From positions 62,001 to 126,000 of the forward strand of contig JAEHOE010000042.1 in NCBI GenBank assembly GCA_016858145.1: a stretch of 64,000 nt of DNA, read 5' to 3'. The notes beneath the pieces are model-generated. The model did not search any database. It saw only the letters and a list, made by a program, of their open reading frames with translations, and was not told where the DNA came from. Positions 11,444-54,047 of the stretch are shown here, in pieces. Positions within the stretch are counted from its first letter, which is position 1. Each line of letters starts with the position of its first letter. The translations under genes and the position numbers were made by a program. The stretch comes from Edaphochlamys debaryana. Its lineage: Eukaryota; Chlorophyta; Chlorophyceae; Chlamydomonadales.

Positions 11444-14400
11444 TTAAACTTGTGACGCACCATCATGGGGTGAGTCAACTTGCCCCAGCTCCGCCTGCTG
11501 CCACGGCTGCAACCCCTCCTCATCCCCTATGCTTGCAGAGTACCCATCCGTGAGCCCTCCATCCTCCTCCCCGCCCTCGCTCCGCACCAGCTCCCCGGGC
11601 TGGCTCCGCGGCACCGCCGGCTGCAGGTGCGACTGCGGCCGATTTCGGTCCCTTAGCAGCCTCTCCAGTCGCTGCATCACGGCTCGCTCCGTACCAGATC
11701 CAGATCTCATACCGGCTCGCGGCAGCCGCTCCCTCAGCCCCCGCTCAAGCGCAAGGCCCGCCGCCTCCACCGCCGCCGGGTCTCGCTGCAGGCCGGGGTA
11801 CCCGGCAGTGCTGGAGCCCACGCGCAGGCGGCTGACCTGCACCCGCGCCGCCGTGGCGGAGCCGGCCCGCGGCGTCGACCCAGGCGACGCTCCGTCTTCG
11901 CTCCGCAGCGTGAACGACAGCGGCGGCAGGCCGGCGGCGGTGGCGGAGGCGAGGCGGAGCGCAGCGGCGGTGAAGGACGGCTGCGTGGGGCTGAGCGCAG
12001 GCGGCGGAAGTTGGTCGAACCGCCGCTGCAGCCGCCGCCGGATGCCCCAGCCGCGGTGCGCCTGCTCGGCAGCCGGGCTGTGGGGGCTCCGGCCTCCCGC
12101 CAGCAGGCTGCCGGCAGAGGGGGGCCGGGCGCCCTGCCGCGTGCCGGGGTCGGCCGGGCTGCGTGGCGTTCCCTCGGACTGCTCCCCGGAGCCAGTCCCC
12201 CAGCGGCCGGCCGCATCCGCTGCCCCGGCCGCGATCGCGAGGGGCCGCAACAGGCCGCCCGCCGCGCGCGCCAGTGCGGCGGCGGCAGCTGAGAGGGGCT
12301 TGACCGTGGCGCCAGGGCCGCCGCTGGAGGCTCCCGCAGCCGAGACGGGTGTGGCGGCAATGTCTGAGGACCCGGCCGTCGTGGCGGGGGCCCCCGGGGA
12401 AGAGGCGGGGAAGCCTGGCGAGGCGGGGAGGGCGGCCGGGGAGGAGACGGCGGCCGAGGGTGACGCTAGGCCGGAGGCTGGGCGCAGGACCGCCAGCCGC
12501 AGCGGGGCCGGGTGCACGAGCGGCGGCTGGAAGGGCGCAAACGGCGACCGGGGCGTGGGCGGCGAGGCCTCCGCTGTGGCAGGCGCCATACCGGGTCCGT
12601 AGTAGCGTGGCGTGGCCGCTTGCGAGCCAGGCAGCGATGCGAGCGCAGCGGCCTCCGCCCTGTCCGGCTCAAGCGGGGCTGACGGCGCGAACACGCCGAG
12701 GTCAATCGTCCGACGCATGAGGTTCCGCCGGCGCTCAGGCGGCGCCGCCGCCAGCTCCTCCGCCAGGCGCTCCAACAGGCATACTACGCCCATCTGGACC
12801 TCCCGTGCCGCCGCGAGCTGCCTTGACATGTCCTCCGCCGCCGCCAGGAGGCTCAGCGTAGCCGACACCAGAGCGGCCGTGGGTGCCTCGGCCTCCACGC
12901 CCTGGCCCTGTCCCTGGCCCTGGCCCTCGCCGCCCTCGCCGTCGCCGTCGCTTGCGGGCGTGACTTCCTCCGTAGCGTGTGGTGCTGGGAGTGCAGCTGC
13001 GGGGCTCTTGGGCAGAGCCACCGCCGCTGCTGACGCCGCCGTCGCCGTCGCGACCGCGGCACTAAAGGGGCGTCTGTGCACCAGCCGTGCGAGGGCGGAC
13101 ATGGGTGAGCCACTGGCAGCCCGGGCCCCGCTCTTCCGTCGGCCCCGACGACCGCTCGAGCAAGGGCTGAGGCCGGGGCTGAGGCTGCTTGCAGTGCTCC
13201 CAATTTCCAGCGCTATGGTAGCCGCATCAGGCTTCAGCGCCAGCGAAAGCAATGGCCCCTGCGGCTCCTCAATTTGGGCTGCGGCCTCGCCAGAAGGCAG
13301 GCCGCCGCGGCGGCGAGAGGACCTGGACCGAAGCGGCGACCAGGGCCGGCGCCTCGACGGCGTGCCTGAGTCAACGGCCTCCGCCTCGCCTTTCCGCAAG
13401 AGCCCAATCGCCACCGTGCTATGGCTGCTACTGCGCTCCCTGCTACCCGCTGGGGCCCCCGCCCCGGCCTGTTCGCCATCGGTGGCGGCGGCGGCGGGAG
13501 CGGCTCCGTCTCCGGGGCCTGGCAAGCGAGGCCGCCGCGGGGAAGCGAGGTCCAGGCTGTCGAGGAGCTTGCGGCTGACGGCCGGCGGCGGCGCGGCGTC
13601 AAAGCCAGCAGCAGCCGCAGCGGCGGGGGCGGGCGCAGGCCGGGCGGCGGCGGTGACGAAGGCCGTGGCGACGGCTGACCCCTCGGACCCCGCAGGCGCG
13701 CCGCTGGAACCGGGCGACGCCTGGCGCGCGGGACCCGCCGCCGCCGCCGCCGCAGCTGCTGCACAGCCGCTGCTGCCACTCGCGCCGCCGCTCCGGCTAC
13801 TGCCGGACCCTGCGCCGGTAGCATTATGGGCGGCGCCCGACCCGCCCTCGACGACTAGAGCCACCGCAGGTGCATCCACCGGCGGTCCCACGGGCGCTGT
13901 TGCGTTGGGTGCCTGCACCAGAGGCACCACAGAGTCGGCCGAGGGCCGGCCCGATGACGGCACCGCCACGCGCCAGTGCGAGGGCAGACGGCGGCGGAAG
14001 GCCGCTGCCGCCGCCGCCAGGACCCAGGCGCCACGCGGCAACGACACATCCGCGGCGGTCTGGGGCAAGGGCGCTGGAGGCAGCTGCGGCCCTTCCGAGA
14101 TACCCGCACCAGCGCCCGGAGCCGTCAACGCCTCGGGAGATGGGCCCGGCTGTGCCAAGGCCGGAGCCTTGGGTGCGGTGGCCATGGCAGCTGCGCGTGC
14201 CCACAGCCCTGGCCTTGGGGCGGTCTGCGGCGCAGGGGCCTCGAGGGGCTGTGCTGCTTGGGCTGCAAGCGCTGGAGCCACACGAGACCAAAGGCCCCGC
14301 TTGGCTGATGATGCCGCCGAAGGCCCCGGCGGCGGCTTGGGCGCTTCTGCGGCGGCTGCCGCGTCTTGCGCGTCAGAGGCAGCCGCGGCCGCCCTGGCGG

Positions 14401-16218: not shown

Positions 16219-19200
16219 CTGATGGCCGCTTCCCTCGACGCATGGTACGCGTACAGCACTCCGTCAGTGAGATGATTGGCGTTCAAAAGAATACCCCTGC
16301 TCCCTGTGCCCTAACCTGCAGTCTGTCGACCAGCGAGCTGCGCCGCAGTCGGTGCACCTTGGGCGTCAGGCGCCGGAGGGCCTCCAGCAGTGCCGTCGAC
16401 GAGGGCGCGCGCCGGAACAGCCTTTGGCCCATGGACCTGAAGATGAGGGCCAGGTCCTGTGGCACGCCGGGCGCACCTCTGCGGTCACGGAGGGGGCCGA
16501 CGCGCGTGTGAGCACGGGGGACTCGAGGTCTGCAGCTAGGACCAGACGACCGGGACGAAGAGGATATGGGTGCAGAACCCCAGGTCGACCAAGCTTCTGA
16601 GCAGGGACTGTGCAGGCCCATCACAGGCCCACCACATGCCCTCTCGGCGATCCCACCGCCCTGTCCGCTCCCCCATGCGCTCACTCGACCGCCCAGGTGG
16701 TGCAGTAGAAGTTCCACGCCAGGATGGCCAGCACCATGGTGAAGACCACCAGCAGCAGGAAGGGCGCCAGCACGGCCACGAAGAAGGCCAGCGCCGCCTC
16801 CGCCGCGTTGGCGTAGTCCTGCACGCTGGAGCCGCGGATCTCCTGCACGTGCGACAACGGATTGTGATTTCGGTCGGGGGATGAAGCAGGGGGGGGGAGT
16901 GAAGCAGGGGGCCAGGGCTGGCGGACGGGGCAGAGCTGTGCCCCCAGGCGGCCACGGATTGCAGCCTCTGTCGCCAGCCCCTCGCCTAGTGGGGCGCCGC
17001 ACCCACCGATAGCGCCTCTCGCGCCTCGCTCTGCACGGTGCCCTGGATGGCGATGTCCACCATGAGCTTGGCGGCGTCGGGAATGCTGTGCACCACGCCC
17101 ACCCGGTCTCCGAAGCCAATGGAAGCTGCGCGCGACGCAAGGCACAGCAAGCAGACAGGCCCGTGAGGACCGAGGGCCAAGGCATGCATGGGCGCTTGCA
17201 AGAACGGTGGCTCAATGAAGGAGCTGGCTGCAGCGCGCTCTGCCTTGCCGCTTCCCTGCCCTGCCCTCTGGAGCCTCCCTTGGGCCTCCCGGGTCCCGGC
17301 CTGCCTCAGAAGACCCAGCCTGATGCGCCACAGTGCACCATCTACGGGCGCCAGCACACCTGGTAAGGGTGACTAGTGCCGTACGTACCGTACTCCGCCC
17401 CCGTTCAGCCCCAACCACGCACCTGCCGCCCCCAGCATGAAGACCAGTGCCACCATGACTAACGCCACGTGGAGCACCTCTGGGATGGACAGCAGCAGCG
17501 TGCCCGTGATGACGGAGAGGCGGGGCTGGAAGGACACGTGGCTCAGCAGCCGTACGACAAGGCACACGAGCACGATGCCCTGGGGCGGAGGGGCGGAGGT
17601 GGTAAGTGAGAAAGGGAATCGCAGGCAGGTAGATAAATTGAACGCTACGTTGGGCGGCAAGCGGCTTGTGAGATCACCATTACCCGTGTACGCCGCGTGC
17701 CGTACGCACCTGGAGCAGGCCGTACCACGTGATGTACGAGGTCATCGTGTCTGCGGTCGCCACCATGTTGCCAGTTGAGACGAGGCCGGAGGAGTCCTCG
17801 GGCAGGGCCCAGCGCCCCTGCTCGCCGGGTCGAGGCAGGGTCGTGGTGTTGCCGGCGCTTAGGGCCGCCGCCAGCATTGCGGCGGCGCTACTGTTGCCCG
17901 CGCCAGTGGCGTTGAACGGGTCTGACGCCTGCACCTCCGCCGCCGCTGCCGCCGGCTCCCGGCGTCGTAGCATGAAGTAGCGGGCTGGCGCGGCGCCTTG
18001 AGCGTCGTACACGTCGTACCTGGCGTGGAAGTTCAGGGCGTGGATACTAGTAAATCTGCTAGCAAGGTGATGACCAGATCCGCTGCAAATGGGACGCGGC
18101 GGTCCATCGGCCGGCTTAATAGCTCGTTTGCATTTCCAGTAACCTGTACCAGCATGCAATTCTCGGACCCACCTGCCCAGGCAACCCCGGCTGCGCTGCC
18201 CTCCGCACCCCCACGCCCCACCTCTCTGCAAAGGCGTTCATGTCGCAGAGCTGGAAGGTGTAGACGCCAAGCACCGCGAGCGCAGCGATCATGGTGCCAC
18301 AGATGAAGAGCTCGAAGACAATCCAGCCTCTGGAGAACATGGCCAGGCGAACCGCCGTCGGGCGAGACCGGTCCGCCATCTCTCTAGCGCGCCATTGCGC
18401 CAGCTGTCGGGTTGACAGAAGCGGGCATGGAGATGAGTGGAGCGGCTCAGTGATTACGCATCAGGGCCCTTGGGAGGAAGGTCGGTGCGGGACGGTGATT
18501 CCCTGGATTGCCCTGGACCGGAACCCGCCAATCACACGACAAAAGCCATGCGAGGTGAGGTGCTTACATGCGGCGGCAGACCAGGGTGCGTGCCGGAGGC
18601 CGGGTCGGGCCCTCGGGTCATGCGTCGGTACATGCGCAGGCTCTGAAAGAGGTCCACCGCTACCAGTCCCACGTAGACCGCGACGAGCAACACCATAAGC
18701 AGGTCGGGCACTCGCTGCCTGGCGGTGGTGCCCTCGGCCTGTGTTGCCGGCAGGCCGTAGATCCGTAGCGCGTTGGAGATCCGCCCGTCGCCCATCCACG
18801 ACAGATCCATCCGTACGTATCCCAGGACCGTCAGGACGGGGTTGTAGACCAGGAGGCGCAGGGAGAGGGTCGAGGTGAGAGCAGGCGAGAGGTAGGCCCC
18901 TTGGGAAAGGTACTCGAGGACCTGAGGGATTTGGAAAGGAGCGGGCATGGCATGACAGAGGCTCTTGGTCATCAGCCGGCACGCACAGTGGCCACGGTCG
19001 GCTGAGCAGCACGGGTTCTGACTGGGGCATGTTAGCAGCACACCGCTCGTAGGGTCTGAACAGGCGGCAGGAACATTCACAAGGGCTACCCATGGCGATA
19101 ACCCTTGCGAAATACGTACCTGCTGCGCTCGCCGCTCGTTGACGCGTGTATCAATCACTATAGGGTAGCCGTCGGGGAAGCCGCGGATGGGAGCATGGAA

Positions 19201-22200
19201 AAAGCCGAACGGGGACCCGCCTGGGCCCAGCTGGGCCCGCGCCAGCGCTGCATCCAGCGCGGCCCGTGCGCTGGCATTTCGGCCTGACGCTGTGTACACG
19301 GACGATAGGACCGCCTCCGTCACGGCAGGCGCCCGCAGGGATGAATTGTAGTATGCAGCTGCGCGGAAGTCCTTTCGGTACAGGGCAGAGCTGGGCATAA
19401 AGACCGGGTCAGTGCCGATGCCGCCCAAGTATCCCGGCGGTATGGACGTTCGGGCCGTGTTGCTGCAGGCGCTGACGAGCCCCGAGTAGCGGGATCGGCA
19501 CGCGGCAGCCGCGCCGCGGCCACCGGAGCCTCGGGTGTCGAACCGCACCGTGAGGTCAAGTGGGTCGCGCCGCGTCTGGTGTAGCAAGAGTCCCACGAGC
19601 ACGTGGTTGGTCGAGCCCTCGCCCACGTGCCGTGACACGTTGCTGTACTGCGTACGGCCGGTGTCGTACAAGGAAGAGGTGACGAGGTAGCCCCGGTAGG
19701 ACTGCAGCGCAGCAAGCAGGGAGGACCGCGGCCCCCGGAGCTCCTCGCCGCCGCCGGTGGAGCCATCGTTGCTGTTGCTCCTACTCCCCCCGCTGCTGCT
19801 GCCGCCACTACCCCCGCTGCCGCCCCCGCTAGTCCCACCGCCGCCTCCGCCGCCGCCACTACCAGTTGCTGCCAGCCTCCGTCGCCTGTCATGTAAGCCG
19901 TTCCCGCCAAAGCTGAAGCCCTTGCCGCCAACACCACCAGGACCACCGCCAAACTGCAGCCGGCGTCTGCGGCTGTCTGGTGAAGGGGGCGACGGCGGGC
20001 TGGGCGGCCGCGGCGGGGGGCTGCCAGGCCCCAGCGAGGCGCTCCCAGTGGCGAAACGGTAGACCGCGCCGTCACCCTGGCGCTTGTCCAGGCACAGGGC
20101 GTAGGCTGCGATCTGGTCTACTCCGTAGAGTTCCAGCGCCGTGCTGGAGTTGAGGCTCGAGGAGTCGAGCCCTTCCGCCAGGCCGACCAGTGTCGCGTTG
20201 AGGACAGAGTTGGTCAGCTGGTACAGGGCTGTGGTCACGAGCGCCGCTAGCGCCCCCACGGCCTGCCGGTTGACTCCCTGATGGGCGGGACACACGGCGG
20301 AGGGCACACGGGCATGAAGGCGTACGGTGGTCGTGAGTCAAGCCGGATGTCCGGCGCACAGCGGTACATGCCCGTTCTACGCAGGTAATCAAACCCGCTT
20401 TGAATAGTTTGCGCGACAGCGTGCCGCTTTGTACCACGCTTCCCACCGCCCACCTGTGCTGCCAGCGTCAGTTCCAGCAGCCTCGAGGCCTCCGCCGCCT
20501 TGGCCAACACCGTCGCCACCGACGCGTGCGCAGCGTCCCGGAGGCCCCCGATGGCAAGCGCGTATGCGTCATCCGTCGCATCGAACCGGTTGCCGTACAG
20601 TGCCGTACTTGTGTTAGCGGCCACGATCGTGACTTCAACAGCTCCAAGGGCGTCGGTGACGTCCAGTAGAGCACCGGAGATCGCAGCCAGGGCCAGGGCC
20701 GTACCGTCGACCGGCGGCGTAAGGCAGGAGGCCGTCGGCGGCGCGTAGCTCGTGATCTGCCCTGCGCCTGCCCCGGTGGATGCGTTGGTGCTGGCGGTGA
20801 GGTTGGCTGTGGGCAGGCGCAGAGCCTCCAGCCCACAGGTCGACGTATCGTTTGGGGACGCAGGAGCCGCCTCCGTCAAGCCGCGCCGCTGGTCCCACGT
20901 GCCGCCGAGCTGCAGGTACCCAAGGGCAGCGTCCAGCCGGTGAGACGCGCGGCCCAACGCACCGCTGCCCACGTCCGAGCCTGTCGCTTCTGGGGCGGCT
21001 CCGGGCGGCACCAGTATCGGTCCGTCCGACTGCGACAGTCCCAGGAGCGCTCTCTCTAAGGCCTGGCGGCGGCGGCGGCGGCGCGATCCGGATGGCTCAG
21101 CGCCGGCGTTGCTTCCGCTGCTGCTCAGCAGATCAGAAGAGGCCACGCTGAGACGGAGTGACAAGACGACGACGGCTGTCGTCCAGTCCTGTGACGTTGC
21201 CACCGCCACCTCTGCTGATAGGACCTGGACCTGCCGTACGCGCTCAGGGGCAATGCCGTACGCTGGTGCCAGCTTCAGCGCCTCCGCCAGAGCCGTCCCG
21301 CTGTCGCCGCGAACCGCCGCCACGAAGGCAGCGGCGGCAGCTGTCGCGTTGCCGGCGCCTGGCAGGGGGCCGAAGGTCACGTTGGCCCCAACGACCACCT
21401 CCGCCAGGGCCTCGACCGTCAGCTGGAGATCTGCCGTGGATGTACGGCCCTCGTCATCAGTCACCGAGTAGCGTAGCGTGTAGTTGCCGGGCAAGCACGT
21501 GCCGTCCGTAAGGTCCCCCGGGCTGCAGCGATAGCACCCTCTGGCGTCTTCGCTGTCAGTACCGTCACCACTTGTCGTCAGACCATCCTCGAAACCTGTA
21601 TCGCCAGCGGCGCTTGGCAGCAGCTGGCGGCAGGGGCTGACGTCAGCAGCCGTGACGTTGGCAGACAGGTCCAGCACCGCCGCTGCGTCTGTTGCAATGG
21701 CGGCGCAGCGGCCCGCCAGGCCCTCCGAGACCGACCCACACGCGGCCAGGCTGACTGGCGCCGGCCGCCGGTAAGCAAGCGCCATGCTCCTGCCTCCCCC
21801 CACAGCGCCGCCCACAGTCCCGTTGCCTGCTCCCAGGCTCGGCAATAGCACCAGCCGTGGGCTTGAGCTGCTATCGCCGGTGGTGGCGGCAACGAGCGCC
21901 TTTCGAGAGTCGCACGTCATGTTGACGCAGAGCCCGTCGCAGTAGCTCTGGCCCGTGCTACAGCCCGCGATCTGGATCACGCGCTCGACGGTTGCGTTGG
22001 CGCCCCGGCTGTCGTACACTGCCAGGACGAGCCGTAGTACCGCCCCTGGTCCACGTGTCTCTGTACGGATGCCGCAGTCAGCGATGGACTTGACGGCTGG
22101 CGCGTGGTCGAGGCATCCCGTGGCCGCACAGCCGGGCGGGGGACACAGCACAACCCTCGAGGTCAGGTTGGTAACCTGCGCGTCAGCTGCAGTGGCACCC

Positions 22201-37200: not shown

Positions 37201-40200
37201 GGAGGGGGAGGCCCGCCACGGGCTCCGGGGGCCGGGGGCTTGGACACGCCAGGCGGCGGGAGGGGAGGCCCGCCACGGGCTCCGGGGCCGGGGCGTGGAC
37301 ACGCCAGGCGCGGAGGGGAGGCCCCGCCACGGGGCTCCGGGGCCGGGGGCGTGGACACGCCAGGCGGCGGAGGGGGAGGCCCTGCCACGGGCTTCCGGGG
37401 CCCGGGGGCGTGGACACGCCAGGGGCGGCGGAGGGGGAGGCCCTGCCACGGGCTCCGGGGCCCGGGGGCGTGGACACGCCAGGGCGGGCGGAGGGGGAGG
37501 CCCTGCCACGGGCTCCGGGGCCGGGGGCGTGGACACGCCAGGCGGCGGAGGGGAGGCCCGCCACGGGCTCCGGGGCCGGGGGCGTGGACACGCCAGGCGG
37601 GGCGGGAGGGGGAGGCCCCGCCACGGGCTCCGGGGCCGGGGGCGTGGACACGCCAGGCGGCGGAGGGGGAGGCCCCGCCACGGGCTCCGGGGCCGGGGCG
37701 TGGACACGCCAGGCGGCGGAGGGGGAGGCCCCGCCACGGGCTCCGGGGCCGGGGGCGTGGACACGCCAGGCGGCGGAGGGGGAGGCCCCGCCACGGGCTC
37801 CGGGGCCGGGGGCGTGGACACGCCAGGCGGCGGAGGGGGAGGCCCCGCCACGGGCTCCGGGGCCGGGGGCGTGGACACGCCAGGCGGCGGAGGGGGAGGC
37901 CCCGCCACGGGCTCCGGGCCGGGGGCGTGGACACGCCAGGCGGCGGAGGGGGAGGCCCCCCACGGGCTCCGGGGCCGGGGGCGTGGACACGCCAGGCGGC
38001 GGAGGGGGAGGCCCGCCAACGGGCTCCGGGGGCCGGGGGCGTGGACACGCCAGGCGGGGCGGGAGGGGGAGGCCCCGCCACGGGCTCCGGGGCCGGGGGC
38101 GTGGACACGCCAGGCGGCGGGAGGGGGAGGCCCCGCCACGGGCTCCGGGGCCGGGGGCGTGGACACGCCAGGCGGCGGAGGGGGAGGCCCCGCCACGTGC
38201 TCCGGGGCCGGGGGCGTGGACACGCCAGGCGGCGGAGGGGGAGGGCCCCGCCACGGGCTCCGGGGCCGGGGGCGTGGACACGCCAGGCGGCGGAGGGGGA
38301 GGCCCCGCCACGGGCTCCGGGGCCGGGGGCGTGGACACGCCAGGCGGCGGAGGGGGAGGCCCCGCCACGGGCTCCGGGGCCGGGGGCGTGGACACGCCAG
38401 GCGGCGGAGGGGGAGGCCCCGCCACGGGCTCCGGGGCCGGGGCGTGGACACGCCAGGCGGCGGAGGGGGAGGCCCCGCCACGGGCTCCGGGGCCGGGGGC
38501 GTGGACACGCCAGGCGGCGGAGGGGGAGGCCCCGCCACGGGCTCCGGGGCCGGAGGCGTGGACACGCCAGGCGGCGGAGGGGGAGGCCCCGCCACGGGCT
38601 CCGGGGCCGGGGGCGTGGACACGCCAGGCGGCGGAGGGGGAGGGCCCCGCCACGGGCTCCGGGGCCGGGGCGTGGACACGCAGGCGGCGGAGGGGGAGGC
38701 CCTGCCACGGGCTCCGGGGCCGGGGCGTGGACACGCCAGGCGGCGGAGGGGGAGGCCCCTGCCACGGGCTCCGGGGCCGGGGGCGTGGACACGCCAGGCG
38801 GCGGAGGGGGAGGCCCGCCACGGGCCCGGGGCCGGGGGCGTGGACACGCCAGGCGGCGGAGGGGAGGCCCCTCCACGGGCTCCGGGGCCGGGGGCGTGGA
38901 CACGCCAGGCGGCGGAGGGGGAGGCCCCGCCACGGGCTCCGGGGGCCGGGGCGTGGACACGCCAGGCGGCGGAGGGGGGAGGCCCCGCCACGGGCTCCGG
39001 GGCCGGGGCGTGGACACGCCAGCGCGGAGGGGGAGGCCCCGCCACGGGCTCCGGGGCCGGGGGCGGGGACACGCCAGGCGGCGGAGGGGGAGGGCCCCGC
39101 CACGGGCTCCGGGGCCGGGGGCGTGGACACGCCAGGCGGCGGGGGAGGGGGAGGCCCGCCACGGGCTCCGGGGGCCGGGGGCGTGGACACGCCATGCGGC
39201 GGAGGGGGGAGGCCCCCGCCACGGGCTCCGGGGCCGGGGGCGTGGACACGCCAGGCGGCGGAGGGGGAGGCCCCGCCACGGGCTCAGGGGCCGGGGGCGT
39301 GGACACGCCAGGCGGCGGAGGGGGACCGGCCCCGCACTGGGGGCGTGACACGCCAGGCGGCGGAGGGGAGGCCCCGCCACGGGCTCCGGGGCCGGGGGCG
39401 TGGAACACGCCAGGCGGCGGAGGGGGAGGCCCCGCCACGGGCTCCGGGGCCGGGGGCGTGGACACGCCAGGCGGCGGAGGGGGAGGCCCTGCCACGGGCT
39501 CCGGGGCCGGGGGCGTGGACACGCCAGGCGGGAGGAGGGGGAGGCCCCGCCACGGGCTCCGGGGCCGGGGGCGTGGACCACGCCCGGCGGCGGAGGGGGA
39601 GGCTCCCCGCCCACGGGCTCCGGGGCCGGGGGCGTGGAACGCCAGGCGGCGGAGGGGGAGGCCCCGCCACGGCTCCGGGGCCGGGGCCGTGGACACGCCA
39701 GGCGGCGGGAGGGGGAGGCCCCGCCACGGGGCTCCGGGGCCGGGGGCGTGGACACGCCAGGCGGCGGAGGGGGAGGCCCCGCCACGGGCTCCGGGGCCGG
39801 GGGCGTGGACACGCCAGGCGGCGGAGGGGGAGGCCCCGCCACGGGCTCCGGGGCCGGGGGCGTGGACACGCCAGGCGGCGGAGGGGGAGGCCCCGCCACG
39901 GGCCTCCGGGGCGGGGGCGTGGACACGCCAGGCGGCGGAGGGGGAGGCCCTGCCACGGGCTCCGGGGCCGGGGGCGTGGACACGCCAGGCGGCGGAGGGG
40001 GAGGCCCCGCCACGGGCTCCGGGGCCGGGGGCGTGGACACGCCAGGCGGCGGAGGGGGAGGCCCCGCCACGGGCTCCGGGGCCGGGGGCGTGGACACGCC
40101 AGGCGGCGGAGGGGGAGGCCCCCCCACGGGCTCCGGGGCCGGGGGCGTGGACACGCCAGGCGGCGGAGGGGGCGAGGCGGTCCCAGGTGCAGGCGGGGGC

Positions 40201-43200
40201 GAGGGAGCAGCCGCGGGGGCTTGCCCTGGCGGGGAGGCGGCTCCAGGCACTTGCGGGGGCGAAGGAGCACCGGCGGGGACTTGCACTGGCGGGGAGGCGG
40301 CCTCTGGTGCAGGCGGTTGCGCTACTGATGGAGGTGTCGCAGAGGGGACCTCCGCCGGGGAAGGAGGGATCGCCGGGGGCTGTGGGCTTGGAGGAGGAGC
40401 CCTTGCCTGGACAGGTGAAGGCGGCGTTGCCGTGGGCTTAGGGCTAGAAGGAGGAGCGGTGGCCTGGACAGGAGACGAAGGTGCAGGCGTGGGCTCAGTT
40501 CTGGGACGAGGAGGAGGGGTGGCCTGGACAGGGGACAGAGGGGTCCCCGTGAGCTCAGGGCTGGGCGGTGGAGTGGCTTGCACTGGCACAGGCGGAATCG
40601 CCGTGGGTTCGGGGCTGGGCGGTGGAGTGGCTTGCTCAGGTGTAGGAGGGCCTGCCGAGGTCTCAGGGCTGGGAGGTGGAGGAAGCGACTGGGATGCGGG
40701 AGGAAAGCCTGCCAGTGGGGAAGGTGATGGCGTGTTGGGTGAGGGAGGCGGCCTGTTCTGCACCGGCGATGATGGTTGAGGAGGGGAGCTGTTGGAAGGT
40801 AGCGGAGGCACTGGGTGAGGTGAAGGCGGCGGCCGCTTCGGCGGAGGCGAAGTAGGAGGATTGGTTGAAGGGGGCGCTGGAGGCGGAGTGCCTGGTGGCG
40901 GCGACGGGATAGGGCCGGCAGGTGTGAAGGGCAGGGTGCCGGAAGGCGAAGAAGGGCTGGGAGGGGGAGGCGGCGACGGACTGGGAGGGGGAGGAGGCGG
41001 CGGTGCCTGGAGGGGGCGGCGGGGACGTATTGGGAAAGGGAGGAGGCGAAGGGCGGGGAGGAGGAGGAGGAGGAGGCGTGCCTGGCGGGGGCGGCGGGGA
41101 TGGGGTGGGAGGAGGCGGTGGGGGAAGGGCTGGGAGGGGGAGGAGGCGGGACGCCGGGAGGGGGCGGCGGAGATGGGCTGGGAGGAGGCGGTGGGGGACG
41201 GGCTGGGAGGGGGAGGAGGCGGGACGCCGGGAGGGGGCGGCGGGGATGGGCTGGGAGGAGGAGGCGGGGACGGGCTGGGAGGAGACGAAGGCGACAGGAG
41301 AGGAGGAAGAGGAGGCGGCGTGCCTGGAGGCGATGGCGGGGACGGGCTGGGAGGGGGTGGAGGCGAGGGGCTGGGAGGCGGAGGAGTCGGTGTGCCTGGA
41401 GGGGGCGGTGGGGACGGGCTGGGAGGGGAAGGGGGGCAACGGGCTGGGAGGGGACGGAGGCGAAGGGCGGGGAGGGGGAGGAGGCGGGACACGGGGAGGA
41501 GGCAGCGGGGAAGGGCTGGGAGGAGGAGGCGGCGAGGGCCGAGGAGGAGGAGGAGGCGTGCCTGGAGGGGGCGGGGGGGGGACGGGCTGGGAGGGGGAGG
41601 AGGCGGGACGCCGGGAGGGGGCGGCGAAGAAGGGCTAGGTGTAGGAGGAGGCGAGGGGCGGGGAGGAGGAGGAGGCGGTGTGCCTGGAGGGGGCGGCGGA
41701 GAAGGACTAGGAGGGGGAGGAGGCGAGGGCCGAGGAGGAGGAGGAGGAGGAGGCGTGCCTGGCGGGGGCGGAGGGGACGGGCTGGGAGGGGGCGGTGGGG
41801 ATGGGCTGGGAGGGGGAGGAGGCGGGACGCCGGGAGGGGCTGCGGGGACGGGCTCGGAGGAGGAAGAGGCGAAGGGCGGGGAGGCGGAGGAGGCGGGACG
41901 CTGGGAGGGGGCGGCGGAGAAGGGCTAGGTGGGGGAGAAGGCGAGGGCCGAGGAGGAGGAGGAGGAGGAGGCGTGCCTGGAGGGGGCGGTGGGGACGGGC
42001 TGGGAGGGGGAGGAGGCGGGACGCCGGGGAGGGGGCTGCGGGGACGGGCTCGGAGGAGGAAGAGGCGAAGGGCGGGGGAGGCGGAGGAGGCGGGACGCCG
42101 GGAGGGGGCGGCGGAGAAGGGCTAGGTGGGGGAGGAGGCGAGGGCCGAGGAGGAGGACGAGGAGGCGTGCCTGGATGGGGCGGAGGGGACGGGCTGGGAG
42201 GGGGGAGGAGGCGGGACGCCGGGAGGGGGCTGCGGGGACGGGCTCGGAGGAGGAAGAGGCGAAGGGCGGGGAGGCGGAGGAGGCGGGACGCCGGGAGGGG
42301 GCGGCGGAGAAGGGCTAGGTGGGGGAGGAGGCGAGGGCCGAGGAGGAGGACGAGGAGGCGTGCCTGGATGGGGCGGAGGGGACGGGCTGGGAGGGGGGAG
42401 GAGGCGGGACGCCGGGAGGGGGCTGCGGGGACGGGCTCGGAGGAGGAAGAGGCGAAGGGCGGGGAGGCGGAGGAGGCGGGACGCCGGGAGGGGGCGGCGG
42501 AGAAGGGCTAGGTGGGGGAGGAGGCGAGGGCCGAGGAGGAAGAGGAGGCGGTGTGCCTGGAGGGGGCGGTGGAGACGTACTGGGAAAGGGAGGAGGCGAC
42601 GGGCTGGGAGGGGGAGGAGGCGGGAGACCGGGAGGGGGCCGCGGGGACGGGCTGGGAGGAGGTGGTGGAGAAGGGCGGGAAGGCGGAGGTGGTGGGTGTC
42701 CTGGAGGGGGCTGCGTGGAAGGGCCGGGAGGTGAAGGAGGCGACGGGTGAGGAGGAGGAGGGGGAGGAGGCGGGTGTCCTGGAGGGGGTGGTGGGGACGG
42801 ACTAGGTGGGGGAGGAGGCGAGGGGCTGGGAGGGGGCGGCGGGGACGGCGTGGGAGGAGGAGGAGGCGTGCCGGGAGGCGGAGGCGATGGCAAGCCAGGA
42901 GGAAAGTCAGGTGGTGGGGCTGGAGGAACGCCGGGAGGCGGAGGCGGGGGCGTGCTTGGTGGCGGAGGTGGGGGCACGACAGGAGGCGGTGGAGGTGGGT
43001 TGCTCGGGGGTGAGAGGGGCGGTGGAGGAGGTGGAGGCGGGGGCAAAGAGTTTGGAGGCGGAGGCGGCGGCAGGCCCGGCGGCTCAAGCGGGGGAGGTGG
43101 GGGTGTCATAGGAGGCGGGCGTAGGGGTTCAGGAGAAGGTGGCGACGGACCGGGCGGATTGGGCCTCGGCGGCCGTGGAGGCAACTGCGGGAGGAGGAAT

Positions 43201-46200
43201 CCTGACACCGCAAAAAGGATTGCCGGGCTGTCTGAGGAGCCCGGGGCGCTGTCCGCAAACAAGGCAGTCGTGGATGTGATGTCGTGCCACATCTCCTCGC
43301 TCATGACTGGTGGCATCGGATAGGATCCCTCGCTTGCTGCCGGCCCCTGAAAGAGATCGAGGACTGCGATGTAGCCCGGAATTGTGGCCGTGTTGTTCCG
43401 ATCCCGACCCCGGACGGGCGAGTAGAAGGTGGCTCGGTCGGGCGCAATCGCTACCCAGTACCGATAGCCGCCCTCGAGGACCACGGGTCTCTGTGGGGAA
43501 CAAGGCACGGAAGGCGTGGATCAATCCTGCCTCAAGGCACAGCGTCGTGCCCTCAATCAGGAAAGGCAAGGTCAGATAGGTCGAAAAATACAAGAAGGAA
43601 AAGCCCTTGGCCCCAGTGCTTCCGCGCCCATCACCAGGCCGTCGTAACCCCAGCTGTAGTCAGCAGCCGGGCTGCAGTTATAGAAAGCTGAAGCCACATT
43701 GCCATTGCTAGGCCCAGTGCCCAAACCCACCTCGGGGGCGAGCTGTACATCGTGCCACAGCGCGTCTTGCTGTACGACAACACGAAAGTCCGTGGATCCA
43801 GATCCGAGGCGGCTCATGAAGGATACGTTCGCCGCTGTACTGGCCGCAGCCGGGTCGGGCAACGGGGAGCGGTACAGGGCCGCTGAGTATGAGCTCCCCG
43901 CCGCCTTATCCTTGGTGGGCAAAACAACTTGAGACAAATGGCACCTAGGTGCATCGGGAGCAACGTCGAAGGCCGCAGCAATCAAGTTGCTGTATGTCTC
44001 CGCTCGAGGGTTTTGCTCGCCCCAGAGTTTGGTGTCAAAGACTGTGACGGCAACGATTGGGCTAGGCGGACCTACGTGCGGGGGGAAAAGAGATACAGAT
44101 TATAATTGTTGCATGGCGCAGATCCGACCCAAACGAGCCTTAGGAGCCGCTAGGGTCTAAACTTAGATCCCGCGTATGCAGTGTGTCAGCTAAGCCTCTG
44201 CAAAGGGCGAGATTTTGCAATGGGGCGCGCTTCTAAGCAGCCGTGTCTCATCAGAACACCTGACACATAGAAAAAGCTGAGCGGGGGCATGAGCCTACTC
44301 ACGAGGGGGGGACGGCTCTCCAGGCGGCAGGTTTGGCGGGCCGGGAGGAGAGGGCGGGGGGGACACCAGGCGGCGGCCCCCGTGGCGGCCGCGGCGACGG
44401 CGGCGGCGGCACGTCAAGCGGCGATGGTGGGGGAACTCGGGGTGGCGGGGGCGGCGGGGCGCCCGGAAGTGGGGGGCGGTAAGATGTGCGGCGGAGGCGG
44501 AGGTGGAGCATCCGGCGGCGGGGGCGGGGGCACATGGGGTGGCGGGGGCGGTGGGGCGTGCGGCGGCGGCGGTGGTGGGGTGAGCGGCGGGGGTGGTGGT
44601 GGGGTGAGTGGTGGCGGCGGCGGCGGGCCATCTGGCGGCGGCGGTGGGGGGGTGAGCGGCGGCGGGGGCGGCGGAGCGAGAGGTGGGGGAGGCGGTGGGG
44701 GTGTCCGGTGGCGGAGGCGGTGGGGTGAGCGGTGGCGGAGGCGGCGGGGCTTGCGGCGGCGGAGGCGGTGGGGTGAGCGGTGGCGGAGGCGGTGGGGTGA
44801 GCGGTGGCGGAGGCGGTGGTTTGTCTGGTGGCGGAGGCGGTGGGGTGAGCGGTGGCGGAGGCGGTGGGGTGAGCGGTGGCGGAGGCGGTGGGGTGAGCGG
44901 TGGCGGAGGCGGTGGGGTGAGCGGTGGCGGAGGCGGTGGGGTGAGCGGTGGCGGAGGCGGTGGGGTGAGCGGTGGCGGCGGCGGTGGGGTGAGCGGTGGC
45001 GGAGGCGGTGGGGTGAGCGGTGGCGGAGGCGGCGGGGTGAGCGGTGGTGGGGGCGGCGGGGTGTCCGGTGGCGGGGCCGGCGGGGCGTGCGGTGGCGGCG
45101 GCGGTGGGGCATCCGGCGGTGGAGGCGGCGGGGCTAGCGGTGGCGGCGGCGGTGGGGCAAGTGGAGGAGGGGGCGGCGGCGCGTCCGGCGGCGGAGGCGG
45201 TGGTTTGTCTGGTGGCGGAGGCGGCGGGGCGGTGGGTGGTGGCGGCGGCGGGGCGCCCGGAGGCGGTGGCGGCGGCACGTGCGGTGGCGGCGGTGGTGGG
45301 GTGAGCGGCGGCGGAGGCTGTGGGATGAGCGGTGGCGGAGGCGGTGGGGTGAGCGGTGGCGGAGGCGGTGGGGTGAGCGGTGGCGGCGGCGGTGGGGTGA
45401 GCGGTGGCGGAGGCGGTGGGGTGAGCGGTGGCGGAGGCGGTGGGGTGAGCGGTGGCGGCGGCGGTGGGGTGAGCGGTGGTGGGGGGCGGCGGGGTGTCCG
45501 GTGGCGGGGCCGGCGGGGCGTGCGGTGGCGGCGGCGGTGGGGCATCCGGCGGTGGAGGCGGCGGGGCTAGCGGTGGCGGCGGCGGTGGGGCAAGTGGAGG
45601 AGGGGGCGGCGGCGCGTCCGGCGGCGGAGGCGGTGGTTTGTCTGGTGGCGGAGGCGGCGGGGGCGGTGGGTGGTGGCAGCGGCGGGGCACCCGGCGGCGG
45701 TGGCGGCGGCACGTGCGGTGGCGGCGGCACGTGCGGTGGCGGCGGTGGTGGGGTGAGCGGCGGCGGAGGCGGCGGGGTAAGCGGTGGTGGGGGCGGCGGG
45801 GTGAGCGGTGGCGGAGGCGGTGGGGTGAGCGGTGGCGGAGGCGGTGGGGTGAGCGGTGGCGGAGGCGGTGGGGTGAGCGGTGGCGGAGGCGGTGGGGTGA
45901 GCGGTGGCGGAGGCGGTGGGGTGAGCGGTGGCGGAGGCGGTGGGGTGAGCGGTGGCGGAGGCGGTGGGGTGAGCGGTGGTGGGGGCGGCGGGGTGTCCGG
46001 TGGCGGGGCCGGCGGGGCGTGCGGTGGCGGCGGCGGTGGGGTGAGCGGTGGCGGAGGTGGCGGGGTGAGCGGTGGTGGGGGCGGCGGGGTGTCCGGTGGC
46101 GGGGCCGGCGGGGCGTGCGGTGGCGGCGGCGGTGGGGCATCCGGCGGTGGAGGCGGCGGGGCTAGCGGTGGCGGCGGCGGTGGGGCAAGTGGAGGAGGGG

Positions 46201-49200
46201 GCGGCGGCGCGTCCGGCGGCGGAGGCGGTGGTTTGTCTGGTGGCGGAGGCGGCGGGGCGGTGGGTGGTGGCGGCGGCGGGGCACCCGGAGGCGGTGGCGG
46301 CGGCACGTGCGGTGGCGGCGGTGGTGGGGTGAGCGGCGGCGGAGGCTGTGGGATGAGCGGTGGCGGAGGCGGTGGGGTGAGCGGTGGCGGAGGCGGTGGG
46401 GTGAGCGGTGGCGGCGGCGGTGGGGTGAGCGGTGGCGGAGGCGGTGGGGTGAGCGGTGGCGGAGGCGGTGGGGTGAGCGGTGGCGGCGGCGGTGGGGTGA
46501 GCGGTGGTGGGGGCGGCGGGGTGTCCGGTGGCGGGGCCGGCGGGGCGTGCGGTGGCGGCGGCGGTGGGGCATCCGGCGGTGGCGGCGGCGGGGCTAGCGG
46601 TGGCGGCGGCGGTGGGGCAAGTGGAGGAGGGGGCGGCGGCGCGTCCGGCGGCGGAGGCGGTGGTTTGTCTGGTGGCGGAGGCGGCGGGGCGGTGGGTGGT
46701 GGCAGCGGCGGGGCACCCGGCGGCGGTGGCGGCGGCACGTGCGGTGGCGGCGGCACGTGCGGTGGCGGCGGTGGTGGGGTGAGCGGCGGCGGAGGCGGCG
46801 GGGTAAGCGGTGGTGGGGGCGGCGGGGTGAGCGGTGGCGGAGGCGGTGGGGTGAGCGGTGGCGGAGGCGGTGGGGTGAGCGGTGGCGGAGGCGGTGGGGT
46901 GAGCGGTGGCGGAGGCGGTGGGGTGAGCGGTGGCGGAGGCGGTGGGGTGAGCGGTGGCGGAGGCGGTGGGGGTGAGCGGTGGCGGAGGCGGTGGGGTGGC
47001 GGTGGTGGGGGCGGCGGGGGTGTCCGGTGGCGGGGCCGGCGGGGCGTGCGGTGGCGGCGGCGGTGGGGCATCCGGCGGTGGAGGCGGCGGGGCTAGCGGT
47101 GGCGGCGGCGGTGGGGCAAGTGGAGGAGGGGGCGGCGGCGCGTCCGGCGGCGGAGGCGGTGGTTTGTCTGGTGGCGGAGGCGGCGGGGCGGTGGGTGGTG
47201 GCGGCGGCGGGGCACCCGGAGGCGGTGGCGGCGGCACGTGCGGTGGCGGCGGTGGTGGGGTGAGCGGCGGCGGAGGCTGTGGGATGAGCGGTGGTGGCGG
47301 CGGCGGGGCATCCGGAGGCGGTGGCGGCGGCACGTGCGGTGGCGGCGGCGGTGGGGTGAGCGGCGGCGGAGGCGGTGGGGTGAGCGGTGGAGAAGGCGGT
47401 GGGGTGAGCGGTGGAGGAGGCGGTGGGGTGAGCGGTGGAGGAGGCGGTGGGGTGTGCGGTGGAGGAGGCGGTGGGGTGAGCGGTGGAGGAGGCGGTGGGG
47501 TGAGCGGTGGAGGAGGCGGTGGGGTGAGCGGTGGAGGAGGCGGTGGGGTGAGCGGTGGAGGAGGGGGTGGGGGTGAGCGGTGGAGAAGGCGGTGGGGTGA
47601 GCGGTGGAGGAGGCGGTGGGGTGAGCGGTGGAGGAGGCGGTGGGGTGAGCGGTGGAGGAGGCGGTGGGGTGTGCGGTGGAGGAGGCGGTGGGGTGAGCGG
47701 TGGAGGAGGCGGTGGGGTGTGCGGTGGAGGAGGCGGTACGGTGAGCGGTGGAGGAGGCGGTGGGGTGAGCGGTGGCGGAGGCGGTGGTGTGAGCGGTGGA
47801 GGAGGCGGTGGGGCAAGTGGAGGAGGGGGCGGCGGAGCGTCCGGCGGCGGAGGCGGCGGGGCGGTGGGTGGTGGCGGCGGCGGAACATCCGGCGGCGGCG
47901 GCGGCGGCACGTGCGGCGGCGGGGGCGGCGGGGCGTGAGGTGGCGGCGGCGGTGGGGCATCCGGCGGCGGTGGCGGCGGCATGTTTGGCGGTGGTGGCGG
48001 TGGGGTGAACGGTGGCGGTGGCGGCGGGGCGTGTGGGGGCGGGGATGGCGGGTTGTCCGGCGGCGGCGGCGGTGGCCTGTCTGGCGGCGGGGGAGGCGGG
48101 GCGTCCGGTGGCGGCGGGGGCAACCGCGGTGGTGGCGGCGGCGGGGCATGGGGCGGTGGAGGTGGGGGAGCGCTGGGCGGTGGAGGCGCTGGCAAGGGCG
48201 GGCTGGGCAAGGGCGGTCCAGGAAGAGAGCTGCCGTTTGTGCTCCCTGTGATGGTGGCCATGATCGAAGGGGATGCAGACGCAAAGGACCAAACAGGGAT
48301 GACGGAATCATACGCTGCAGGTGCGCAGAGGGACAGGTCTGGACAGAGTAAGAGCCACAGCATCCGCAACAGCACCGGCTCTTACCCGAAACCGTCGCGC
48401 GTAGGTAGATGCCCTCACCTGGGCAAGGGGGGCCACGATGTGGGTATGGTTTCGGGTTGCGTAATCACATCCTCAACAGTGCATGGCATTGTTGGTTCTG
48501 CCTGGCAGCCCTCCACAGTCATGGATCGAGGGCTACATCAGCAGCGTACACGTCTCACCAGCATTCGGGAACGTTCTTGGCACGTAAGACAGTGCAGTTG
48601 GCGAGCTGACCGTTGCAAGCTTCAGCCACCCAAGCGTGTTAAATGCAACACACCCGGGCGTGCTTTCACATGCCTGCGCGATCGCCTGCCGTCCGATCGA
48701 GCCGACTCTCTTTATGTCGCTGCCTATGATGTCGTACGACTGATAAAAGCAGTAGTTGTACAGTACATCTGAACCGACTGTGGGAGGTGGGGGGGCAGGG
48801 TGTGCAAGTGGGTCGGGGCCAGGGGGCAGGGTCTTGGTGAGGGGATGGCTCGGTGAGAGAGCTTCGCACTGCCATGAATCCCATCAGGGCCCACACCCCT
48901 CATTATGAACAGGAGCTGCCCCGGCTGCATGGTCGGTCCAGCAAAGCAGCCTTAGGACCTGTCGCCTCTGCCGGCCCCTCCTCACCTGGACGTCGTATGT
49001 ATATCCCCTGCAAGGCCAGTGCCAGCGGGCAGGACAGATGGATAAGCACGTCAGCGCATTCCCAAAGGCAGGGGTGCCCTACGGCTTGCGTGCGACGAGG
49101 TACGGTTCATGCTGCGCGTCATGACAGCAACGCAGCCATACCCACGCCCAACAAACTGCTCCTTCTGCCCTCTCAGTCCGAGCCAACCCTTTCCGCAAAC

Positions 49201-50249
49201 CCATGGCCCATGGTGCATGGCCCATAGGCCATAGCCCGCCGCTGGTGCCATTCTAGCGCACCATGTACGAGCGCCGTACCTGGGTTGGGCTAGTGAAGGC
49301 CGTCGACGTTTGCAGCTGTCCGGCCATCACCGTGCTCCAGCCCTGGGTTTTGAGCCAGCCGTCTGCGTGGTGGGCACAAGTTCCACACACGTGGGATAGA
49401 CGTGGAGCTGACGTGCTCGATGGCTGGCTAGACGTGCTCGATGGCATCTGGTGGGGTGACTAGCCAGCCTCCGCCCGGCCCACACACGCAGCAGTTTAAC
49501 CTCATAGCCTACACGCTGCGCCACCGGTGCCAGTAGCCGTCATCGGGGTAACCCCAATCCAGCCTGCCCAGTACAGCCCCGTCGGTTTCTCTCGCGCCCG
49601 CTGTGTTTAGACACTTTAGAGGGCCCTGGTGGACCAAGCCCTCCCTCATCAGCGTCCCAGCCCTGGTGCTGTGAGCTCGTTCCTAAGTTGGCCCTGTAAC
49701 GCAGCCCATACAGCCCCATAGGGCACCGGTACACAGGCATCGGGTAACCATTGCCTTGCCCTAGGCATCACCTCATGGCGCCCATGAACGCACCTGTGTT
49801 GAAGGCCAAGCACTGGGAGTCCAGCAGGCATACGTTGTAAGCTAGCTCCACGACCTCAGCGGTGGTCAATCCCACCACCGAGCACAAGCCCGGGACGAGG
49901 GACTCGAAAGCGCACCGCAGGTTAGAGCCAGAGATGTCCCGTTGCGGGTACCAACAGAACGGGCCGAGCGTGATGAGGGCTGCAAGGCGCGAACGGGGCG
50001 GCAGGTGGGGGGATCGGCACTGTCTTAACAGTTGTGGGGTGCGTTTGCGCATTCGCAAAAGGTCAGGAGGAGGCCCGCCCCAGACCATCCCAATGAAGCC
50101 TGCCGGGACCCTGGCCGCCCGTGACCACCGTGGCACACGGCCGCACACCCCAGGATCCCACAGCACCCCTCTACACAGCGCTCACCCAACGCAGATTTGG
50201 GGCCTGGCGGGCCCACACCCAGGAGCAGCAGCAGCAGTAGCATTAACAT
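11444..50249 (-). CDS. Giant polycystin-type channel protein with hydroxyproline-rich stalk
   Basis: Twenty exons: 50186-50249, 49794-49979, 49280-49362, 48986-49007, 48559-48777, 44303-48338, 43635-44071, 24054-43490, 22853-23877, 20454-22601, 19120-20277, 18568-18921, 18222-18403, 17710-18019, 17423-17579, 17007-17125, 16685-16842, 16316-16478, 15338-16218 and 11444-15209. The CDS is about 34.9 kb (~11,600 residues). Every join outside the two Pro-rich exons keeps phase. Order: signal peptide (MLMLLLLLLLGVG), two PAN-like modules, Pro stalk 1, beta-sandwich, Pro stalk 2 with the 57-bp array, Ig/HYR-like modules, polycystin channel, and a ~1,600-residue Ala/Gly/Ser/Pro tail. Acceptor alternatives exist, for example exon 6 could start near 48,319. 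The Pro-rich exons are not open in one frame because of single-base indels, so the real protein length is uncertain. Two separate genes (stalk and channel) are possible but less likely, because splice phases link them cleanly. Confidence 0.75.
14744..14792 (-). repeat. (CCTCCG)n microsatellite encoding poly-Gly in the channel tail
   Basis: A run of CCTCCG/CCGCCG units reads on the minus strand as about 16-18 consecutive glycines in the cytosolic tail, just after GAADD and before EHEQERFSGG. Such tracts are slippage-prone, so copy number may vary between strains. Confidence 0.7.
16316..20277 (-). other. Polycystin channel module (TOP-like ectodomain plus S2-S6)
   Basis: The exon 19120-20277 holds the extracellular polycystin-type domain with GTDPVFMPSSALYRKDF, YYNSS and GFFHAPIRGFPDGYPIVID. 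The next exon continues with VLEYLSQGAYLS and LRLLVYNPVLTVLGYVRMDL, the hallmark strand pair that follows in PKD channels. Hydrophobic helices follow: S2 (VPDLLMVLLVAVYVGLVAVD), S3 (WIVFELFICGTMIAALAVLG), S4 with FQPRLSVITGTL, S5 (VLHVALVMVALVFMLGAA), a pore-loop region (IPDAAKLMVDIAIQG) and S6 (AFFVAVLAPFLLLVVFTMVL). Family knowledge: polycystin/TRPP channels are cation channels of cilia and membranes. No clear S1 precedes the ectodomain, and the acidic GD filter of PKD2 is not evident. Confidence 0.78.
20454..24200 (-). other. Ig/HYR (DUF5011-like) ectodomain modules
   Basis: About five beta-sandwich-like modules lie between the Pro-rich stalk and the channel. Signatures are SPTIVLVGLSDVSVEVFSP with DDVDGRVPVDV and YVLSYLATDRAGNTA, then VTVGTTYTDPGATATDWQDG with YVLSYSVIDNA, then LLSLNGPETVTVLQHGRYTW with SYNITFLLPYGLDG, and two more degenerate copies ending in GNYTLRYSVTDDEGRTSTAD. 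Cysteine-rich linkers (CSVEGIC, CDGLCVNMTC) separate them. Such modules usually act as extracellular spacers or adhesion units. Confidence 0.65.
24600..24960 (-). other. Globular island at the membrane-proximal end of stalk 2
   Basis: Between the 57-bp array and the next Pro-rich linker the minus strand encodes a non-repetitive segment. It includes ALTGVDFALVSATLESF, GSCDLVSVSPGSVVVVANLF and ALVLATEAFAFEPMIRLDEP. The pattern of a short helix, a cysteine and a GSVVV strand resembles small SEA-like or related ectodomains in algal Pro-rich proteins, but I cannot assign a family. Confidence 0.4.
25163..40172 (-). repeat. 57-bp coding tandem array, about 263 copies
   Basis: A head-to-tail minisatellite of 15,010 bp. 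On the minus strand one unit encodes GVSTPPAPEPVAGPPPPPP (19 residues), in frame with unique Pro-rich sequence on both flanks. Recurrent variants are V to E at position 2, the second P of TPP to A, E to Q at position 9, one P to R near the end of the proline run, and a silent GCG/GCA difference. From 25,163 to about 30,060 units are nearly all exactly 57 bp. From about 30,060 to 39,700 many units have single-base gains or losses. The last units to 40,172 are clean again. The Ser-Thr-Pro and poly-Pro composition predicts a hydroxylated, glycosylated polyproline-II rod. Confidence 0.92.
40173..43150 (-). repeat. Diverse Pro-rich repeats of stalk 2, distal half
   Basis: On the minus strand this segment encodes Pro-rich units of two kinds: SPVQATPPPSPE-type repeats (about 40,200-40,700) and SPSPPPPPGVPPPPPP-type repeats (about 40,900-43,150), typical of pherophorin and extensin-like wall proteins. 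It lies in the same exon as the 57-bp array. Several single-base length differences in G runs disturb the frame, most clearly between about 42,020 and 42,400. Confidence 0.7.
42108..42493 (-). repeat. Two near-identical 193-bp tandem copies
   Basis: The blocks 42108-42300 and 42301-42493 are essentially identical and a third partial copy follows. The length 193 is 3n+1, so each copy shifts the Pro-rich frame. Both copies share the same extra G in a G run just before GGAGGAGGCGGGAC. Confidence 0.7.
43150..44071 (-). other. Beta-sandwich-like module between the two Pro-rich stalks
   Basis: Exon 43635-44071 and the start of the next exon (upper end 43,490) encode a non-repetitive globular domain. 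It begins SPIVAVTVFDTKLWGEQNP and includes SSYSAALYRSPLPDP, WHDVQLAPEV, SWGYDGL joined to RPVVLEGGYRYWVAIAPDR, and ends near EEMWHDITS. The order alternating strand, WHD, and GYRYWVAIA resembles choice-of-anchor or carbohydrate-binding beta-sandwiches in secreted proteins. The assignment is by pattern only. Confidence 0.5.
44303..48250 (-). repeat. Pro-rich stalk 1: (PPPPPPxxP) repeats
   Basis: The 4-kb exon encodes, on the minus strand, hundreds of 9-residue PPPPPP-plus-three units (LTP, DAP, HVP, TAP, DKP and others) after a short globular lead that contains DSVIPVWSFASASPSIMATI. It is a classic hydroxyproline-rich glycoprotein rod. A few G-run length differences (near 45,484, 46,968, 46,998 and 47,570) break the single frame, so sequence or assembly errors are likely. 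Confidence 0.75.
45060..47075 (-). repeat. About 1,028-bp higher-order tandem duplication in stalk 1
   Basis: Blocks starting GTGTCCGGTGGCGGGGCC occur at 45060, 45494 and 45993, and again at 46089, 46521 and 47020. The offset is constant at 1,027-1,029 bp. Finer marks inside, such as GGTGGCAGCGGCGGGGCACC near 45,672 and 46,699, keep the same offset. A recent duplication of about 1 kb is the simplest reading. Confidence 0.75.
48559..49979 (-). other. Two PAN/Apple-like cysteine modules at the N-terminus
   Basis: Module 1 (exons 49794-49979 and 49280-49362) has FCWYPQRDISGSNL then CLLDSQCLAFNTDGWLK. Module 2 (exons 48986-49007 and 48559-48777) has YCFYQSYDIIGSDI then CESTPGCVAFNTLGWLK. The two align closely, so the module was duplicated. 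The C..xxxC.AFN..GWLK pattern matches PAN_4-like domains, which bind carbohydrate or protein. They sit just after the signal peptide, at the far tip of the predicted rod. Confidence 0.62.

Positions 50250-51894: not shown

Positions 51895-54047
<2,153 letters not shown>

Follow-up and report, generated by a model that had tools for sequence, protein, structure and literature searches.

The locus described here raises the question of whether a secreted start, two proline-rich stalks, an Ig-like region and a polycystin channel, which follow one another on the minus strand, belong to one giant gene, and what kind of protein such a gene would encode. The window analysed is a 64,000-nucleotide stretch of contig C42 of Edaphochlamys debaryana, a unicellular volvocine alga, and searches of the genome covered the assembly of 141.9 Mb in 502 contigs. 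The published assembly is described as comprising 142.14 Mb in 527 contigs, built from PacBio reads and polished with Illumina data (PMC8226300). We consider it probable that the locus is a single gene for a giant glycoprotein with a flexible tether, a half-polycystin resembling MST3, and that it works by the mechanism proposed below; MST3 is the PKD2-like core protein of Chlamydomonas mastigonemes (PMC11015965). From position 50,249 to 11,444, the minus strand accommodates 21 exons and 20 GT-AG introns of 71-431 bp, laid out as follows (the bases of each assignment are in brackets):

50,186-50,249, minus strand: exon 1, start codon and hydrophobic, signal-peptide-like N-terminus (exon model, hydropathy)
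48,386-49,979, minus strand: exons 2-6, two cysteine modules sharing a ...C.AFNT.GWLK motif (exon model, weak PAN_4 match)
44,303-48,314, minus strand: exon 7, stalk 1, 8-residue units of the PPPPPPLT type (24-bp period, proline content)
43,731-44,071, minus strand: exon 8, start of a globular domain, with an alternative end at 43,635 (exon model)
40,173-43,490, minus strand: first part of exon 9, rest of the globular domain, then stalk 2a (exon model, proline content)
25,163-40,172, minus strand: exon 9, stalk 2b, 57-bp (19-residue) tandem array PGVSTPPAPEPVAGPPPPP (repeat analysis)
24,055-25,162, minus strand: 3' end of exon 9, Pro-rich linker, SEA-like segment (our own label, given without a Pfam test) and start of the Ig-like region (alignment with TSOC_007762)
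20,454-23,877, minus strand: exons 10-11, Ig-like region (PF16403)
18,568-20,277, minus strand: exons 12-13, TOP (polycystin) domain and S2 (MST3 match, hydropathy)
16,316-18,403, minus strand: exons 14-19, S3-S6 with the pore region, and beginning of the cytosolic tail (Pfam, MST3 match, hydropathy)
11,444-16,170, minus strand: exons 20-21, cytosolic C-terminal tail and stop codon (exon model)

This model amounts to 34,830 bases, nominally 11,610 codons. Its phases are consistent between exon 1 and the beginning of exon 7, and again from the 3' end of exon 9 as far as the stop codon; exons 10-21 contain no internal stops, and exon 8 joins exon 9 in phase if it is taken in its own frame. Read literally in a single frame, exons 7, 8 and 9 contain 2, 4 and 13 stops, respectively, because the stalks shift frame repeatedly. 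The agreement of phases outside the repeats, put forward in a preliminary description, holds for the two outer portions; within the stalks, the frames are broken. Outside the stalks, the G+C content was 78.7% at third codon positions, against values of 62% for second positions and 61.9% for introns, which matches the expectation for coding exons in such a genome. TGTAA is the poly(A) signal motif; on the coding strand from 50,548 to 7,305, its sole occurrence, at 18,568, is a splice donor, so that no obvious poly(A) signal divides the stalk from the channel. The next TGTAA 3' of the stop codon is ~4 kb distant.

The polycystin channel region proposed earlier was confirmed by a PF08016 match of 23.7 bits (cut-off 22.4) and by an alignment of exons 12-19 with Chlamydomonas MST3 (PDB 9b4h_X, 8,572 aa), which runs from the TOP domain to S6 over ~490 residues with an E-value of 7.2e-68. 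This MST3 (Cre06.g309951, PDB 9b4h chain X), which we take to be the Mstax of a second 2024 paper, was the sole PDB match of the channel query at E 0.001; a 1,945-residue query including the channel had no PDB match at E 0.01, whereas the channel alone did. A search with the Polycystin_dom profile gave no match, either here or in the controls, and thus did not yield SIP. Hydropathy analysis revealed five hydrophobic segments (exons 13, 14, 15/16, 16/17 and 18) and none between the stalk end and exon 12, ahead of the TOP domain. Since a complete polycystin-2 has six helices including S1, and only five segments with S1 missing were found, a complete channel was rejected; the five segments would fit an S1-less half-polycystin with its N-terminus outside. 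The locus shares with MST3-like half-polycystins a channel region, S2-S6 only, and a large extracellular part with Ig-like and poly(proline) stretches. The segment count is support for this assignment and not a proof of topology, because at this threshold three weak segments are also picked up in the extracellular portion of TSOC_007762, a partial Tetrabaena socialis protein (P0001, 2,740 aa) that is the best homologue found. The putative filter region reads IAIQGTV, presumably unlike the PKD2 filter.

Ahead of the channel, the Ig-like modules were recovered in part above threshold, with PF16403 scoring 29 bits in exon 10 (cut-off 27) and 21.2 bits, below the cut-off, in exon 11; the Ig region had no PDB match. 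In the Ig region, TSOC_007762 is 49% identical to the window protein over one stretch of 239 residues and 43% over another of 549; in the channel, identity is 42% over 600 residues. Its record starts inside a Pro-rich stretch of PSPEPSPLPP units, a lead-in like that of the window, and continues with the SEA-like segment (48% over 40 residues) and the Ig region, so that Pro-rich stretch, SEA-like segment, Ig region and channel are all found in one annotated protein. At 24,054/23,877, one of the two joins singled out in the preliminary description, SPYIEPG/AYAVDDVDGRV of the window aligns with DTYQEQG/AYAMDDTDGRV of TSOC_007762. The annotated protein runs through this join and thereby provides independent support for a single reading frame there.

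The N-terminal half yielded less. A mean hydropathy of 3.17 across residues 1-12 agrees with the signal peptide claimed for exon 1, and an in-frame Met may lie upstream of the modelled start at 50,249. Neither the "PAN-like" nature of the cysteine modules nor a sticky tip was borne out: the best PAN profile (PAN_4) matched one module of the two with E 0.12 and 12.8 bits against a cut-off of 27, the whole head had no PAN profile match at E 1, and no domain match of the head was significant. A PDB match of the head to TAL-effector repeats was judged to be due to chance, with no stretch passing on its own. At two other places in the genome, the cysteine modules of exons 2-6 were weakly matched (E 0.002 and 0.0025). 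For exon 8, there was no Pfam match and no other match in the genome; searches with the globular domain of exons 8 and 9 gave nothing useful, and exons 1-8 had no homologue among the 15 proteins compared. The second of the two joins, 43,490/43,635, is possible but without homologue support, and a donor at 43,731 fits equally well. At the opposite end, exon 21 had no Pfam match, and the tail of exons 20-21 was unmatched in the homologues compared.

Two Pro-rich stalks are indeed present. Stalk 1 has a 24-bp period, several frame changes and a best-frame proline content of 72% over 48,200-44,303; the corresponding value for stalk 2a is 60% over 43,180-40,180, and proline runs in the window stalks reach at most 9 residues. 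In the 57-bp unit of the array, 10 of 19 residues (53%) are prolines, and an array 33-mer had at least 178 matches, all of them on C42 among the matches listed. The array and its flanks share one frame at both array ends. At 25-30 kb, 83 of the 85 units have a length of 57 bp, the other two deviating by +1 and -1, whereas elsewhere in the array only 57 of 149 intervals are 57 bp, with 138 indels in 128 units, 126 of them of a single base. Counting only units of up to 75 bp, 71 of 127 deviate from 57 bp at 30-40 kb versus 2 of 83 at 25-30 kb. Such clean ends and a noisy interior point to consensus error, with the look of unpolished long reads, rather than to biology. Because of the one-base indels throughout the interior, the ~260 copies, the 11,610 codons and the length of 1.5 micrometres are all nominal, and the 11,600 residues of the preliminary description, although countable, share this status. 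Openness of the array alone is no evidence of coding, because two plus-strand frames, 5,128 and 5,067 aa long, are open as well. Among 83 array units, 27 codon changes were synonymous and 42 were not, which gives no sign of purifying selection; copying within the array makes these changes dependent on one another.

The published scale for such stalks is 133 nm for 429 residues, or 0.31 nm per residue, and according to Dai et al., helices with 2-3 prolines in every 3 residues should be rigid and cased in sugars (PMC11015965). At 0.31 nm per residue, the array of 15,010 bp would span ~1.5 micrometres if fully extended. Its ~1.6 prolines per 3 residues (53% proline), however, suggest a flexible chain and make a rigid rod unlikely. 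With 10 prolines in 19 residues and an unreliable copy number, the earlier picture of a micrometre-long rigid rod fails.

The likeness to MST3 raises the further question of which E. debaryana gene is its orthologue. When an MST3 fragment was compared with the genome, C112 ranked first (pieces of 45-63% identity) and the window gene came well behind (37-53%); in the channel, identity to Chlamydomonas MST3 was 54% over 322 columns for C112 versus 39% over 401 for the window. The C112 locus (~142,000-171,000, plus strand) combines a C-type lectin exon (1.9e-9), proline runs, an Ig region and a channel. From 145.5 to 156.8 kb it contains 98 runs of at least 10 prolines at spacings of mostly 69 and ~126 bases, equivalent to ~55 repeats of ~66 residues, which is the MST3 register. 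No Lectin_C match was found in the window pieces scanned, which covered the gene except for the stalks, exon 20 and the beginning of exon 12. The strict P13/P11(XXP)3 pattern (P13YnP11(XXP)3) occurs once in C112 and nowhere in the three minus-strand frames of the window; proline-run length and spacing make the better test, because even C112 has the strict pattern only once. In a tree built from 24 rows and 488 columns, with the alignment anchored on the window, P0006 and P0007 omitted and P0011 a duplicate of C5, C112 joined Chlamydomonas MST3 with a support of 1.00, and the window gene joined C170 (0.71) and then TSOC_007762 (0.78) with moderate support. The Ig pieces of C170 lie at 222,429-223,687, 8.4 kb from the contig end.

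These comparisons identify C112 as the E. debaryana orthologue of MST3, and the window gene as an MST3 paralogue with its own 19-residue repeat. A homologue of MST1 was also found, with an exon at C172:171,107-174,226 (PDB 8tx1 Mst1, E 2.4e-78), so that, judging by homology, the window gene exists in the alga alongside a true MST3 and an MST1 homologue. If each repeat adds 19 nm, the ~55 repeats of C112 would give a hair of ~1 micrometre; for Chlamydomonas MST3, 42 repeats are reported (PMC11015965). At least eight further family loci were seen in the genome in a match list of 25 pieces. In the homologue searches, a 682-residue channel query had no homologue among 7,999 scored candidates, presumably because the length rule of the search shuts out its long relatives, and longer queries had 7 among 7,987 and 9 among 1,960 candidates. 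In Chlamydomonas, MST2 and MST3 have locus numbers not far from one another (PMC11015965); none of the 35 genomic Ephrin_rec_like matches, sought as a sign of an MST2 neighbour, is on C42 or C112, and synteny was uninformative.

As to the kind of protein, MST3 is described as having a secreted start, a polyproline stalk, an Ig-like region, an S1-less PKD-like domain and a long cytosolic C-terminus (PMC11015965). The window protein has the same order of parts; in contrast to MST3, it has no P13/P11(XXP)3 repeats and no lectin match in the pieces scanned, its repeat is 19 residues long, its head differs and there is a second stalk. With this paralogy to MST3, the "structural hair anchored by a channel domain" suggested earlier names the right class, that of the published MST3 model (PMC11015965). 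In that source, MST3 and seven further Chlamydomonas proteins have S1-less domains that SIP completes in predictions; the seven, predicted SIP binders set beside the window by description only, have a large extracellular part, an incomplete PKD domain and, in all but one, poly(proline) (PMC11015965). Agub_g13042 of Astrephomene gubernaculifera (P0009, 6,228 aa) also has a hydrophobic start, a Pro-rich stalk of ~1,700 residues, a Pro-rich linker, an Ig-like region and a channel, but it clusters with other paralogues and has a different repeat and annotated (precomputed) Apple/PAN domains. Animal polycystin-1, likened to MST3 by Dai et al., has a large Ig-containing extracellular part and pairs with PKD2, but carries extra transmembrane helices (PMC11015965). 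The kind is thus already known from MST3 and its seven partial-PKD relatives; as far as our searches go, the stalk repeat, the nominal size and the presence in the same genome as a true MST3 are new, and apart from PMC11015965 the open-licence literature gave no report of a mastigoneme protein from E. debaryana or of a polycystin with a proline stalk from a volvocine alga.

Several other explanations of the locus deserve attention. It is improbable that two genes are present, one (exons 1-7) for a hydroxyproline-rich glycoprotein of the wall or surface and another, starting near exon 8 or 9, for a half-polycystin. No homologue among the proteins compared spans exons 1-9, one stalk-1 frame hits a stop at 44,295-44,297, immediately past the proposed donor, and frame noise masks the true phase, all of which a split would accommodate. 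Nevertheless, a GTGAGT donor sits right at the stalk-1 end and is matched in phase by a TAG acceptor after 231 bp, an intron length near the published median of 198 bp (PMC8226300); no TGTAA lies between the two parts; and exon 8 needs an exon ahead of it, since its frame is closed by a stop immediately upstream and lacks a Met. In the window at 44,295-44,303, the GTGAGT donor overlaps the in-frame TAG of one stalk-1 frame, and a transcript left unspliced at 44,303 would yield a short secreted stalk without a channel. The chances are even that the array is real while its assembled length is wrong, the true stalk being much shorter or longer than 5,000 residues: besides the contrast of clean ends and noisy interior, Illumina polishing of a PacBio assembly may be poorly placeable within 57-bp repeats, whereas the units differ among themselves, which aids assembly.

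That the window gene is itself the MST3 orthologue, and hence the core of an MST1-clad mastigoneme, is scarcely credible despite the similar overall architecture and 9b4h_X as the only PDB match at E 0.001, because C112 matches better and has the lectin exon and proline-run register, and neither P13/P11(XXP)3 repeats nor runs of at least 10 prolines were found in the window stalks; this orthology was dropped once C112 outranked the window gene in the genome search. Unlikely, too, is a wall or matrix glycoprotein for which the half-polycystin is a mere membrane anchor without a role in ion flow or sensing. A proline content typical of hydroxyproline-rich glycoproteins, the missing S1 and a filter region presumably unlike that of PKD2 would suit such an anchor. 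On the other hand, the TOP domain and S2-S6 are conserved relative to MST3 and other family members, which suggests a selected role in a channel complex, and MST3 is described as lost or reduced in pkd2 and sip mutants (PMC11015965).

For the single MST3-like half-polycystin that we favour, the following mechanism may be proposed by analogy with MST3. A secreted head would be followed by two long proline-rich stalks, presumably hydroxylated and glycosylated, and then by the Ig-like region, the juxtamembrane TOP domain, S2-S6 and the cytosolic tail. SIP would supply the missing S1 and TOP helices, and the completed unit would join PKD2 in the ciliary membrane, as proposed for MST3, while the stalk, a flexible tether or thin hair, would keep the head at a distance from the membrane. 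Since the window stalk does not have the MST1-binding proline pattern of MST3, it probably bears no MST1 coat; the protein is probably SIP/PKD2-associated rather than MST1-clad, and may form surface filaments of a second kind, in addition to the true mastigoneme.

MST3 provides the precedent of a polycystin subunit bearing a micrometre-scale glycoprotein hair, and the function of mastigonemes is, in the words of Dai et al. on this point, still to be uncovered (PMC11015965). A sensing role of the window protein, such as the gated spring of the preliminary description, may be envisaged. If expressed as modelled, the window gene would give one cell a second such subunit, with a stalk longer than that of MST3 and no MST1-binding pattern, and would thus separate the channel complex's need of a hair from the contribution of the MST1 coat. 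The stalk would be a coding minisatellite, of which natural length variants may exist. A bolder and rather speculative reading is that there are two types of channel-anchored ciliary hair, one MST1-clad on the C112 MST3 and one an unclad single-molecule filament on the window protein; the length of this filament, perhaps as much as 1.5-2 micrometres on stretching, would depend on an expandable coding minisatellite of 19-residue units, and array-length polymorphism would then tune the reach of the sensor.

Some minor observations concern other loci. Upstream of the giant gene and on the same strand lies a ribosomal protein S11/uS11 gene (window 51,766-54,062, minus strand); its first exon matches PF00411 at 4.1e-21, and with a TGTAA at 51,766 it ends before the giant gene. 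Two close half-polycystins, one of them HYH03_002176, are found at C5:686,001-696,000 and 742,001-752,000, ~55 kb apart and in opposite orientation. On C20, a cluster of Ephrin_rec_like exons occupies both strands at ~122,000-186,000, and one piece of it is weakly Mst1-like as a whole, with no single stretch passing. At C142:228,752-230,227, the Ephrin_rec_like matches form regular 105-base repeats within one open frame of 916 residues.
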